DNA of 64,000 nt from Akkermansiaceae bacterium. GTDB taxonomy: Bacteria; Verrucomicrobiota; Verrucomicrobiia; Verrucomicrobiales; Akkermansiaceae. The stretch lies in the NCBI GenBank assembly GCA_026421245.1, contig JAPKDJ010000002.1, positions 62,001-126,000 of the forward strand, written 5' to 3'. The translations under genes were made by a program, and so were the position numbers. The notes beneath the pieces are model-generated. The model was given only the letters and a program-made list of their open reading frames with translations. It was not told the origin of the DNA and searched no databases. Positions within the stretch are counted from its first letter, which is position 1; each line of letters starts with the position of its first letter. Positions 33,259 through 50,519 of the stretch are shown here, one piece after another.

Positions 33259-34698
33259 ATGTTTTTTCTCACTAAAATGTTCAAGCTCCGGGACAAGGCC
33301 AACCCGGAAGAGGAAAAGCCATTCCTCGATCACCTCGAAGATCTGAGAATCATGGTCACTAGGGTCGTCCTGACCCTCCTTATTTCCACCCTTGTCTGCT
33401 TCGTTTACAAAGACGAGCTGATGAAGATTATCCGCAAGCCTGTCGAAGAGGTCTGGGTGGATCGACACGAGGCCACCCTTCCCGAGGATGAGGACATCTC
33501 CCTCGACGACTGGGAGAACGCTCTCTCCTTTTCCCAGATCTCGGCCCCACTCGGCCAATACGACCCAGAACTCGCCGAACTCTGGTGGGCCAAGGCCACC
33601 GATGAACGAACCCGACGACTCACCGAGGCCGCCATCATCTACCGCGCCGCCCAAAAACTCGAAGAAGATCAACAGCAAGACTTCATCAAGTCCTTGCCGG
33701 ATGAAAAAAATGGAGCCCGCGAGCTGGCCCTGAAACTCCTCGAAACCAAACCCAGCGATGACCTCAATGCCGAGGGCAACCTCCGGCTCATGAGTTCCCT
33801 GAAGCCAACGGAGACCTTCATGCTCACGATGAAGCTGGCCTTTTTTGCCGGCATCATCGTCTCCTTTCCCTTCCTCCTCTATTTCCTGCTCCAATTCATC
33901 GTTCCCGGACTCAAGGCCAAAGAACGAAAAGCCCTCTGGCCCGCGCTCTTGATTGGCTTCGGACTCTTCCTTGGGGGGGTCTTTTTCGCCTACTTCTTCG
34001 TCCTACCGAACGTCCTCACCTTCTTCTATGAGTGGGGTAAGGACATGGGAATTTCCAACGACTGGCGGATCGGCTACTACATCTCCTTTGCCACCACCTT
34101 TGTCCTCATCTTTGGTCTGGCCTTCGAACTTCCCGTCGTGGTGATGACCCTTGTGAAGATTGGCTTGCTCAGTCACAGCATGATGCGTGAGACCCGCTCC
34201 TATGCGATTCTCGCCATCTTTGTGATCGCCGCCCTCATCACACCGACTCCCGACATGATGACCCTGTCCCTCCTTGGCGTTCCAATGGTGATTCTATACG
34301 AAATCTGTATTTGGCTCTCCTACTTCCACGAGAAGAAAGTCAACCGCGAGGAGGCGGAAGAAGAGAAGGAACGTATGAAGTGCCTCTTGTCCGAGCCAGA
34401 GGGCAACGATGACCCGGAAGATGATCCGCATCATGACGACCACGATCATCATCATGACGACCACGATCATCATCATGACGACCACGATCCGCATCATGAC
34501 GACCACGATCCGCATCATGACGACCACGATCCGCATCATGACGACCACCTCGACCTGACCGAAGAGCACGAACATGAGGACATCAGTGACGACTACATGA
34601 ACTATCCCGGTGAGCATCATGCACCCGAGGAGGATCCCAACTACGACCCATTGCTCCCGGACGAAGACATTCCCGACGAGGAAAAAGACCGTAAGTGA
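33259..34698 (+). CDS. tatC: Sec-independent protein translocase TatC with enlarged loop and His/Asp-rich C-terminal tail
   Basis: FLDHLEDLRIMVTRVVLTLLISTLVCFVYK, FAGIIVSFPFLLYFLLQFIVPGLKAKERKAL, FGLAFELPVVVMTLVKIGLL, AILAIFVIAALITPTPDMMT. Confidence 0.95.
   Translation: MFFLTKMFKLRDKANPEEEKPFLDHLEDLRIMVTRVVLTLLISTLVCFVYKDELMKIIRKPVEEVWVDRHEATLPEDEDISLDDWENALSFSQISAPLGQYDPELAELWWAKATDERTRRLTEAAIIYRAAQKLEEDQQQDFIKSLPDEKNGARELALKLLETKPSDDLNAEGNLRLMSSLKPTETFMLTMKLAFFAGIIVSFPFLLYFLLQFIVPGLKAKERKALWPALLIGFGLFLGGVFFAYFFVLPNVLTFFYEWGKDMGISNDWRIGYYISFATTFVLIFGLAFELPVVVMTLVKIGLLSHSMMRETRSYAILAIFVIAALITPTPDMMTLSLLGVPMVILYEICIWLSYFHEKKVNREEAEEEKERMKCLLSEPEGNDDPEDDPHHDDHDHHHDDHDHHHDDHDPHHDDHDPHHDDHDPHHDDHLDLTEEHEHEDISDDYMNYPGEHHAPEEDPNYDPLLPDEDIPDEEKDRK
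34429..34548 (+). repeat. 21-bp in-frame tandem repeat (~5.7 copies) encoding HHDDHDH/HHDDHDP
   Basis: catcatgacgaccacgatcat x2, catcatgacgaccacgatccg x3, then catcatgacgaccac. Confidence 0.97.
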
Positions 34699-46743: not shown

Positions 46744-47070
46744 TTACTCCGGAATACGATACTTCGATTGATACTCTTCAAGCCTCTCCTTCGCCTCCTT
46801 CGCGGCCTTCTCAAGCCCGGCCTGATCCTCGTACAACTTCGTGAGTGCAGCCTCTTTTTCTTCGAGCTGTTTCTGAAGATCAGCGACAGATATTTCAGGC
46901 GGATCATTCTTTGTTGAAGCTATCTTGGCTCGAAGTTCGTCAAGTTTTTCCTCCAGAGCTTCCAACTCCTTCTCCTGCTCTTCGTATTTAAGAATATCCT
47001 GCGGGGTTGCCTTCTCCTGACAAGAAGACAAAGCCAAGACCGCAACCAAAGAAAGAACGATTCGTGACAC
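46744..47070 (-). CDS. Small coiled-coil lipoprotein, copy 1 (GTG start)
   Basis: MSRIVLSLVAVLALSSCQEKATPQDILKYEEQEKELEALEEKL...; lipobox ALSSC. Confidence 0.7.
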   Translation of the reverse strand: MSRIVLSLVAVLALSSCQEKATPQDILKYEEQEKELEALEEKLDELRAKIASTKNDPPEISVADLQKQLEEKEAALTKLYEDQAGLEKAAKEAKERLEEYQSKYRIPE

Positions 47071-47076
47071 ACACCG

Positions 47077-47096
47077 AGTGTGACTTTTGTCACACT
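47077..47096. promoter_or_regulatory. CRP/FNR-like palindrome AGTGTGAC-TTTT-GTCACACT
   Basis: Contains TGTGA-N6-TCACA (47079-47094), in the divergent gap between the lipoprotein and the adjacent pseudogene. Confidence 0.4.
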
Positions 47097-47166
47097 TAAG
47101 TCAATGTCAGCCCGTTTTCTTGACCGGAGTCCATTGACAAAGTCAATCCGTGGCAAAACTCACCCC

Positions 47167-47666
47167 ATGCCCTGGAACGAAAAATTTCTCGAACCTTTCC
47201 GCCGACCAGAGAGGAAAGGATGATTTTATAAGCGACTACTCGGAAGACGATCTCTCCTTTCTCTCCAGCATCGGCTACAACCCGCGTGACCTTTCCGATT
47301 TTGTCGAAGACCTGGCTGACGAAGGTGCCCCCACCGAATCAACAGCCCTGCTTATCGCCTCCGTGCGTCGGGATTATTTTCTTGTTGTCCAAAATAGAAC
47401 GGCCAGCCAGTGGGGTCCTCCGGGGTGACCTTCCCTCATTCAGCGAAGAATTCGACACCCTCGCCTATCTTCCGCACATCATAGCCAAAGCGCCCGAAAA
47501 ACTTCGGAGCGAACTGCATCGAGACGTCATGTTCAGTTGCGGAAGAGACCAAAAATTCCTGCGCAAAAACGGTGATATTCATCCGGCGGACTTCCTTCGT
47601 CATATATGGTCGGCCGATGGCGATCCTCAAAAGATGGCTGACTTTGTCCGCCAATCAGTCTCATAG
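47167..47666 (+). pseudogene. Decayed paralogue of the 48334-48849 gene
   Basis: From ATG 47167 the frame hits TGA after 18 codons (MPWNEKFLEPFRRPERKG*). Against the right copy there is a net -14 nt indel near 47205 and a net -2 nt change near 47410. The homologous reading continues across three frames. Confidence 0.85.
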
Positions 47667-47675
47667 GAGGGAACC

Positions 47676-48236
47676 CTAGCGAATTCCCAATCGCTTGAGG
47701 TCCTCCAACTCATTATTGAGACGGGCGAGCTCGATATAGGAATTCGAGTTCTCGTCAGCGAGTTCTTGTGCTTTGTCTCGATAAACTTCGGAATAGCCTA
47801 TCGCCTTTTTCCGTCTCGCCTGATTATTCTCTTTAAATGCATTGGCTTCCCATTGGGAGGCCTTGGACTTCCAGCCTTTGATTTCCCCGATTTTGATCCG
47901 AATCACATCTTCTCGTTCAAAAATCTCAGCCTGCATGTCCTTCATTTTCTGAAGAATGGCCGTTTTCCTTCCCTCGTCCTTTCCCCCGGCCAATCCCTCA
48001 GCTAACTTCGTGATTGCAACCTCTTCTTCGAGCTGTTTCTGAAGATCCGCGACAGGTATTTTAGGCGGATCATTCTTTGTGGAAGCTAGCTTAGCTCGAA
48101 GCTCCTTAAGTTTTTCCTCCAGAGCTTCCAGCTCCCTCTCCTGCTCTTCGTATTTAAGGATATCCTGCGGGTTTGTCGTCTCTTGACAAGAAGACAAAGC
48201 TAAGATCGCAACCAAAGAAAGAATGATTCGTGACAC
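47676..48236 (-). CDS. Coiled-coil lipoprotein, apparent chimera (N-terminal half like copy 1, C-terminal half like copy 3)
   Basis: N-term MSRIILSLVAILALSSCQETTNPQDILKYEEQERELEALEEKLKELRAKLASTKNDPP matches 46744-47070. C-term EGRKTAILQKMKDMQAEIFEREDVIRIKIGEIKGWKSKASQWEANAFKEN...LEDLKRLGIR matches 48859-49785. Confidence 0.8.
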   Translation of the reverse strand: MSRIILSLVAILALSSCQETTNPQDILKYEEQERELEALEEKLKELRAKLASTKNDPPKIPVADLQKQLEEEVAITKLAEGLAGGKDEGRKTAILQKMKDMQAEIFEREDVIRIKIGEIKGWKSKASQWEANAFKENNQARRKKAIGYSEVYRDKAQELADENSNSYIELARLNNELEDLKRLGIR

Positions 48237-48333
48237 ACATTAAGTCTGACTTTTGTCATATTAAAGTCAATGTCAGACCATTTTCTTGACCGGGGCCCAT
48301 TGACAAAGGTCGATCCGTGGCAAAACTCACCCC

Positions 48334-48849
48334 ATGTCTTGGAACGAAAAATTTCTCGAACTTTTCCGCCGCTGCCTTTCCAACTACCAGGGAGGAAAGG
48401 ATGATTTTATAAGCGACTACTCGGAAGACGATCTCTCCTTTCTCTCCAGTATCGGCTACAAACCGCGTGAACTTTTCGATTTTGTCGAAGACCTGGCTGA
48501 CGAAGGTGCCCCCACCGAATCAACAGCCCTACTTATCGCCTCCGTGCGTCGGGATTATTTTCTTGTTGTCCAAAACGGAACGGCCAGCCCAGTGGAGGTC
48601 ACCCGAGGGGACCTTCCCTCATTCAACGAAGAATTCGACACCATCGCCTATCTTCCGCGCATCATAGCCAAAGCGATCGCAAAACTTCGGGGCGAACTAC
48701 ATCCAGACGTCATGTTCAGTTGCGGAGGAGACCGAAAATTCCTGCGCGAAAACGGTGACATTCATCCGGCGGACTTCCTTCGCCATATATGGTCGGCCGA
48801 TGGCGACCCTCAAAAGATATCTGACTTTATCCGCCAGTCAGCCTCATAG
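48334..48849 (+). CDS. Conserved hypothetical protein (tentatively DUF5069-like), intact copy
   Basis: 171 aa MSWNEKFLELFRRCLSNYQGGKDDFISDYSEDDLSFLSSIGYKPRELFDFVEDLADEG...DVMFSCGGDRKFL...DIHPADFLRHIWSADGDPQKISDFIRQ. The DUF name is from memory. Confidence 0.65.
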   Translation: MSWNEKFLELFRRCLSNYQGGKDDFISDYSEDDLSFLSSIGYKPRELFDFVEDLADEGAPTESTALLIASVRRDYFLVVQNGTASPVEVTRGDLPSFNEEFDTIAYLPRIIAKAIAKLRGELHPDVMFSCGGDRKFLRENGDIHPADFLRHIWSADGDPQKISDFIRQSAS

Positions 48850-48858
48850 GAGGGAATC

Positions 48859-49785
48859 CTAGCGAATTCCCAATCGCTTGAGGTCCTCCAACTCATTATT
48901 GAGACGGCTGAGCACGATATAGGAATCCGAGTTCTCGTCAGCAAGTTCTTGAGCTTTGTCTCGATAGACTATGGAGTAGCGTATCGCCTTTTTCCGTCTC
49001 GTCTGATCATTCTCTTTAAATGCGTTGGCTTCCCATTGGGAGGCCTTGGACTTCCAGCCTTTGATTTCCCCGATTTTGATCCGAATCACATCTTCTCGTT
49101 CAAAAATTTCAGCCTGCATGTCCTTTATTTTCTGAAGAATGGCCGTTTTCCGTCCCTCTTCCTTTCTCTCGGCCAATCCCTCTTTCCACTTCTTATATTT
49201 TTCGGCCCTGAGCGCGGTATTGGACTGAAGTTTTTCGGTGAATTTATTGGCTTCCTCCTCGCTCATCTGAAGTTTCGCCAGAATTTCCGGAGTGAGCTCC
49301 TTTAGCGGAATCTCCTGCGGACCGGAAGGCATGTAGACGCGTATCCGAAGTGGACTGATGGACAAAATACGGACGTCTTTGTATTCGTCCCCCTTGGTTG
49401 CCGACAAGTCGATCGACTCCCCAATGGCATCCTTTCGAAGAATCGCCCGATATCTTGCTTGATACTTTTCAAATTCCTCACCAATCAAGTCGATCGACTC
49501 CCCAAGTTCCTCATTGCGGAGCTTGGCTTCCTCAAAAATAATTGTCTTCTCGTCCAAACTTTCTTTGATTTTGACGGCCAGCTTGATGTCTTCCCGGGCT
49601 TTTTCGTGCTTCGCGAATTTCACTTGCTCCTCTGCGAGGTATTTCTTCTTGTGGCGAAGATCATAACTTTGCCCATCGAGCTTCTTATCCAGATTTTCAA
49701 TCTTGGCTTCGCCATCCAACTCAAAGCACCCCACCAGAGCAGTGGACGCCACCACAGGCAGGGCAAAAAGATTCCATATTCTCAT
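48859..49785 (-). CDS. Coiled-coil lipoprotein, copy 3
   Basis: MRIWNLFALPVVASTALVGCFELDGEAKIENLDKKLDG with lipobox ALVGC. Internal DVRILSISPLRIRVYMPSGPQEIPLKELTPEI followed by coiled coil. Start set at ATG 49785. Confidence 0.7.
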   Translation of the reverse strand: MRIWNLFALPVVASTALVGCFELDGEAKIENLDKKLDGQSYDLRHKKKYLAEEQVKFAKHEKAREDIKLAVKIKESLDEKTIIFEEAKLRNEELGESIDLIGEEFEKYQARYRAILRKDAIGESIDLSATKGDEYKDVRILSISPLRIRVYMPSGPQEIPLKELTPEILAKLQMSEEEANKFTEKLQSNTALRAEKYKKWKEGLAERKEEGRKTAILQKIKDMQAEIFEREDVIRIKIGEIKGWKSKASQWEANAFKENDQTRRKKAIRYSIVYRDKAQELADENSDSYIVLSRLNNELEDLKRLGIR

Positions 49786-49898
49786 GGAGAGAAAACTAGG
49801 TCTCATTCCCCTATCTATCAAGAATCTAGACCACTCTTGCGATGAAAACTCCGCGCCAAAGATTGGACACCCTCCCTTCCCGCTGTCAAACTTCGCCC

Positions 49899-50519
49899 AT
49901 GCGCGACTACAACGGCGAGGAGATTCTGGTGATTCCTCGCGAATTATTTGACGAACTGGGATCATTCCAAGGCATCGAGAGCGATATCGACCGGTATTTG
50001 GAAGCTCTTCTTGACCCTGCCAATAATTTTTTTATGGACCGAGGCAAAGCTGAAGAAGATCCTTCCTTCAAGCAAATTATTCCCTACGCCCTCTTCCATC
50101 ACGAAGGACAGTATCTCCACTACACTCGTGGAAAAAGTGGCGGTGAAAGCCGTCTTCATGCCCAGGGATCTGTCGGAATTGGAGGGCATATCAACCCCAT
50201 CGATGAACGTGCCGATCCACTGGGACGCGAAACCTACCTGGCCGGTGTCGAACGTGAAATCGACGAAGAACTCAACATCTCTGGTGCTCATAGAAACCGC
50301 ATTGTTGCGCTTCTGAATGATGACAGCAACGATGTCGGCAAGGTCCACCTGGGAGTGGTCCACGTCTTTGAACTCGAAAATAACGAAGTCTCGTCGGCCG
50401 AAGACGCTCTCGCCAATCTTGCCTTTCAATCCGCAGCCTCTCTCAGAGGGGAGCTCTATCGCTCACTCGAAACCTGGTCCAGATTCTGCGTGGACAAGAT
50501 CGTCGAATCACCCGGTTAA
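49899..50519 (+). CDS. NUDIX-like domain protein
   Basis: GSVGIGGHINPIDERADPLGRETYLAGVEREIDEELNISG...NDDSNDVGKVHLGVVHVFEL; REIDEEL matches the Nudix REUxEE core. Confidence 0.65.
   Translation: MRDYNGEEILVIPRELFDELGSFQGIESDIDRYLEALLDPANNFFMDRGKAEEDPSFKQIIPYALFHHEGQYLHYTRGKSGGESRLHAQGSVGIGGHINPIDERADPLGRETYLAGVEREIDEELNISGAHRNRIVALLNDDSNDVGKVHLGVVHVFELENNEVSSAEDALANLAFQSAASLRGELYRSLETWSRFCVDKIVESPG

Follow-up and report, generated by a model that had tools for sequence, protein, structure and literature searches.

The window analysed here, a 64-kb stretch of DNA from one marine verrucomicrobial species, contains a locus in which three genes for lipoproteins on the − strand alternate with two copies of an ORF on the + strand (Table 1). 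From left to right these are lp1, the left ORF copy, a chimeric lipoprotein gene, the right ORF copy and lp3. An initial annotation of the sequence had already given this five-part order, which holds except that the left ORF is not intact but frameshifted. The products of lp1 and lp3 are lipoprotein-like and helix-rich, and their lipobox cysteine is kept in orthologues. The start codon of lp3 is an ATG (at 49785), and those of lp1 and of the chimera are GTG. Both lp1 and the chimera score under the cut-off of the model for the lipoprotein attachment site (PF08139); searches of Pfam and NCBIfam returned coiled-coil background matches only for lp1 and nothing significant for lp3. Within lp3, an imperfect 36-nt repeat (49405–49440 and 49486–49521) encodes GESIDL twice, 27 residues apart.

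Table 1. Features of the duplicated lipoprotein locus (positions in the window)
Feature	Positions	Strand	Remarks
lp1, intact 108-aa lipoprotein, lipobox LSSC, left parent of the chimera	46744–47070	−	ORF list, orthologues
Left breakpoint inside lp1, CCTC, codon phase 0	46827–46830		Matches lp3 49179–49182
Duplication unit 1, 1169 bp	46831–47999		Head to tail with unit 2
Left ORF copy, pseudogene	47167–47675	+	14-bp deletion near codon 13, 2-bp deletion near codon 87
Chimeric lipoprotein, 186 aa (1 to ~79 from lp1, ~81 to 186 from lp3)	47676–48236	−	
Novel joint CCTC; left side lp3-derived, right side lp1-derived	47996–47999		
Duplication unit 2, 1183 bp	48000–49182		
Duplicated divergent promoter region	48237–48333		Alignment of eight sequences
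Intact ORF copy, 171 aa, DUF5069-like	48334–48849	+	ORF list
lp3, intact 308-aa lipoprotein, lipobox LVGC, right parent of the chimera	48859–49785	−	Orthologue in G026 74% identical

The + strand ORF was found in 52 of the 58 genomes searched, including each of the 39 whose completeness is 90% or more, and, the window's genome aside, it is single-copy in every matching relative except one (G012, considered below). Relative to the right copy and to the nearest relative (G026, whose ORF is 84% identical), the left copy lacks 14 bp and 2 bp, and no frame reads through it. It is a frameshifted pseudogene, which leaves one working copy of a conserved DUF5069-like gene. The ORF of the window scores 15.2 bits against DUF5069 (PF16798), under the Pfam cut-off of 27, and the same model was matched by all 25 family members tested, with E-values of up to 0.1 (best 1e-9); it is a relative of DUF5069 and at most a candidate member of the family. 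Structure prediction gave a compact helical fold for the ORF product (mean pLDDT 93.8), for which a fold search of the PDB returned no significant match. In many more distant relatives, outside the group that bears lp1 and lp3, a NUDIX-like gene directly follows the ORF, and lp1 and lp3 are missing or elsewhere; in the window lp3 intervenes between the two (48334–50519). This pairing suggests a shared function. The NUDIX-like gene was so called from its motif and has no Pfam match.

When the region from 45.5 to 51.0 kb was compared with itself, it displayed a single strong off-diagonal of the 1.17 kb that the initial annotation had foreseen for a dot-plot: 46835–47999 against 48004–49182, a direct repeat with 90.8% identity over 1182 columns including gaps (E = 0). 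Cut at the joint, the repeat consists of two direct and adjacent copies (46831–47999 and 48000–49182), the arrangement of a short-junction tandem duplication. These units are 91.7% identical (97 mismatches among 1170 aligned bases); in their alignment the left copy has gaps of 1, 14 and 2 bases and the right copy has one of 3 bases. Within the window this 1.17-kb tandem repeat is by far the largest repeat. The spacing of the units is 1166 bp on the lp1 side, the value estimated earlier, and 1183 bp on the lp3 side, where about 1182 had been given.

The middle gene changes its affinity within its reading frame. On the + strand it is lp3-like through CGGCCAATCCCTC, which ends at 47999, and then lp1-like (AACTTCGTGA...) from about 48004. 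The tetranucleotide CCTC is common to both parents and to the chimera (46827–46830 in lp1, 47996–47999 in the chimera and 49179–49182 in lp3) and its codon phase is identical in all three genes; since the frames of lp1 and lp3 are also open, the fusion is in frame and both parents have been kept. The initial annotation had noted that the N-terminal half of the middle lipoprotein resembles the left gene and the C-terminal half the right one, and had placed a novel joint and a fused frame inside the gene. That joint can now be set at CCTC, at residue ~80 of the product (the residues spanning it lie around KLAEGLAGGKDEGR): the promoter region, signal peptide, lipobox and first ~79 codons come from lp1, and the last ~107 codons from lp3. 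Near the joint, the parents share no exact match longer than 7 bp, and the one of that length lies away from the joint itself, so that the parental end points share little or no homology beyond the 4-bp CCTC. The exchange is an illegitimate, short-junction event, and recombination between long repeats was not the route.

Upstream of the chimera lies a duplicate of the lp1 upstream region. An alignment of eight sequences that includes the two window copies shows no variation in TTGACA (+) and TTGACT (−); a scan for sigma-70 promoters found nothing above chance, and Rfam gave no match. In the divergent intergenic copies (47071–47166 and 48237–48333) these elements are close to the ORF start, so the ORF transcript may have a very short leader. 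An inverted repeat, GTGTGAC-TTTT-GTCACAC, is also present in the left intergenic copy, where it is perfect; its counterparts in the right copy and in G026 are degraded.

The relatives used for comparison are Verrucomicrobiales by their named records, several of them labelled Akkermansiaceae, and are mostly environmental metagenome assemblies. G026 and at least seven other members of the genus (G020, G009, G018, G021, G003, G016 and G019) have the unduplicated order sugar-isomerase-like gene(+)/lp1(−)/ORF(+)/lp3(−)/NUDIX-like gene(+); the lp1 orthologue of G026 is 68% identical and those of the other seven occupy the same place. The comparison with sister genomes that had been recommended with the initial annotation therefore bears it out: the same flanking genes enclose lp1, the ORF and lp3 without duplication. 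No clear duplicate was found at this locus in the other relatives (57 searched), which, together with the unduplicated order, settles the direction of change. An ancestral family of the middle form had been named as the observation that would contradict the duplication; no relative searched encodes the fused form, and with the chimera as query its two halves match two separate genes in genomes of the genus. The chimera is derived, and specific to the window's species among the genomes compared, because the relatives are unduplicated and its halves match separate genes. A second, independent duplication was considered for G012, where two ORF copies lie on two contigs. The ends of these contigs (L125 and L126) overlap across this locus by 539 bp at 98.5% identity and one of them turns into unrelated sequence, which makes an assembly break, probably from strain variation, likelier than a duplication.

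Each copy of the unit is about 80% identical to G026. The duplication is younger than the split from G026, because dS between the copies (0.11–0.16) is far below dS to G026 (0.52–1.10). Divergence is enough at this locus to compare the fate of each copy, and changes after the duplication were polarised with G026 as outgroup. The ratios of nonsynonymous to synonymous changes were 5:3 for lp1, 4:4 for the C-terminal part of lp3 and 6:4 for the right ORF, or 15:11 for these intact genes pooled (about 0.4 when scaled by sites). They were 20:6 for the left ORF and 13:4 for the chimera, and after scaling both are about 1 (about 0.96 for the chimera). At these small counts the chimera does not differ significantly from the pooled intact genes (Fisher P = 0.33). 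Apparently the chimera evolves like the dead ORF copy and unlike its parents, with counts too small to decide the matter. A neutral frame of the chimera's composition remained stop-free in 30–51% of simulations with 15–25 substitutions, so an open frame does not by itself testify to function. One segment of the chimera (47830–47929) differs from lp3 at only 2 positions per 100 bases, against an average of about 8, and may reflect local constraint or gene conversion. On balance the chimera is probably constrained weakly at most, and our best estimate is a gene that is predicted to be expressed but dispensable.

The structure of the chimeric product was predicted with AlphaFold2 from an alignment that combined C-terminal relatives of lp3 with relatives of lp1. 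The model has a signal helix, a low-confidence N-terminal hairpin (23–53 and 62–80) and a confident C-terminal hairpin (85–135 and 139–185; pLDDT about 90 within residues 85–185). Between the two hairpins, a low-confidence break (78–84) coincides with the joint; it is partly expected, because only the chimera's own row in the alignment covers both halves. The fusion would thus lack the signal peptide and the N-terminal and middle regions of lp3 and retain its C-terminal hairpin whole. The joint thus separates two helical hairpins at what is predicted to be a hinge, which makes it plausible that the product folds and is lipidated. Fold hits of the model (VIPP1, SMC and axoneme coiled coils) had E-values of 0.1 or more and were set aside as reflecting long helices. 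The copied upstream region of lp1 leads us to predict that the chimera is transcribed, exported and lipidated, and its localisation is likewise a prediction.

The units, the CCTC ends and the unduplicated relatives agree on the structure of the locus and on its history: a tandem duplication with end points inside lp1 and lp3, as had been proposed. We are highly confident that this duplication created the chimeric lipoprotein gene. The ancestral locus had the order still present in the relatives, from the sugar-isomerase-like gene to the NUDIX-like gene. In the lineage of this species, the CCTC in lp1 paired with the CCTC in lp3 by short-junction exchange, and the ~1.18 kb between the two sites was duplicated in tandem, leaving lp1 and lp3 intact and giving rise to a second ORF copy. 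At the novel joint, the upstream region, start codon, signal peptide and lipobox of lp1 became fused in frame to the C-terminal helical hairpin of lp3; the left ORF copy was later lost through frameshift deletions. With its frame open, the chimera would be made under the upstream region of lp1 as a lipidated coiled-coil envelope protein without the N-terminal and middle region of lp3.

Three other accounts of the locus itself were weighed against this duplication. Two strain haplotypes joined head to tail by the assembler could produce copies that differ by 8%; the genome is a draft of 192 contigs, and strain variation appears to break this very locus in G012. Yet a 4-bp illegitimate junction leaves little room for a misjoin, as the parental match near the joint is off-joint and, at 7 bp at most, too short for a k-mer misjoin. 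Moreover, the joint is codon-exact mid-way in two different genes, one ORF copy is dead and the other intact although no relative with a genome at least 90% complete lacks the gene, and the locus sits in a 166 kb contig; an assembly artefact is highly improbable. A duplication older than the split from G026, since homogenised by gene conversion and lost in G026, is very unlikely too. It could account for the variation in identity within the unit, where mismatches range from 2 to 13 per 100 bases, but it requires losses in G026 and possibly in other relatives, and genes and intergenic DNA have diverged to a similar degree (6 to 12.5% between units). Nothing was found in favour of the middle form being ancestral, with lp1 and lp3 arising from it by fission or partial duplication. 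This idea is refuted by the relatives compared, G026 among them, which have separate lp1 and lp3 genes and no middle form, and the copies arose well after the lineage separated from G026; the probability of this idea is negligible.

Given the tandem duplication, one may still ask whether purifying or adaptive selection acts on the chimera as a new functional gene, which would put the hairpin module of lp3 behind the promoter and export signal of lp1, and whether the duplication was retained on its account. The 186-codon frame has stayed open at ~8% divergence between the copies, its sole gap being an in-frame one of 3 bp; the joint lies at a predicted hinge between complete helical modules, the conserved promoter elements are retained and 47830–47929 is almost unchanged. 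Against this stand the near-neutral polarised ratio and the frequency with which neutral frames escape stop codons in the simulations. We regard such a function as possible but improbable, and we are more doubtful still that the chimera is a young gene kept by selection in which the lp3 hairpin, detached from the remainder of lp3 and controlled by the lp1 promoter and export signal, has taken on a separate envelope role.

The route to a chimeric gene by tandem duplication is already known, and the present locus is a new example. The closest precedent is that of sigH in Staphylococcus aureus, where short-junction tandem duplications gave nusG'-'sigH and rplK'-'sigH chimeras that were in frame and left the parent genes in place (PMC3486894). 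In one clone the unit was 1210 bp with an 8-bp direct repeat at its ends, and the fusions used the promoter and start codon of the other gene, their product being detected by western blot (PMC3486894). Short-repeat ends, an in-frame fusion at the joint and two intact parents are common to both systems. However, the S. aureus event was laboratory-selected and reversible (PMC3486894), whereas the present duplication is natural, persistent, 8% diverged and joined at 4 bp, and is known from its sequence; furthermore, lp1 and lp3 run in the same direction and flank an ORF on the opposite strand. Promoter-capturing tandem duplications in Salmonella (Anderson and Roth 1978, as cited in PMC11111574) likewise put a gene behind a new upstream region through the novel joint; as that citing article presents them, they were selected laboratory events that joined genes to promoters, while here coding sequences are fused. 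Tandem duplications also produce chimeric genes, and thus serve as a source of new gene structures, in Drosophila (PMC4503668), where the cases are eukaryotic and segregate in populations, unlike the present locus.

Age has made the origin of many fused genes unreadable. In the present case a single 3-kb stretch displays the parents, the 4-bp joint and the fate of each copy, and sister species display the prior order, which amounts to a clean natural example, from an environmental bacterium, of a gene born by tandem duplication. The locus is also a useful test case for distinguishing a chimera that has survived from one that has simply not been broken so far. Elsewhere in the window, at 34402–34590, lies an array of a 21-bp unit rich in GAC, CAT and CAC, one frame of which encodes a His/Asp-rich stretch that is possibly metal-binding.
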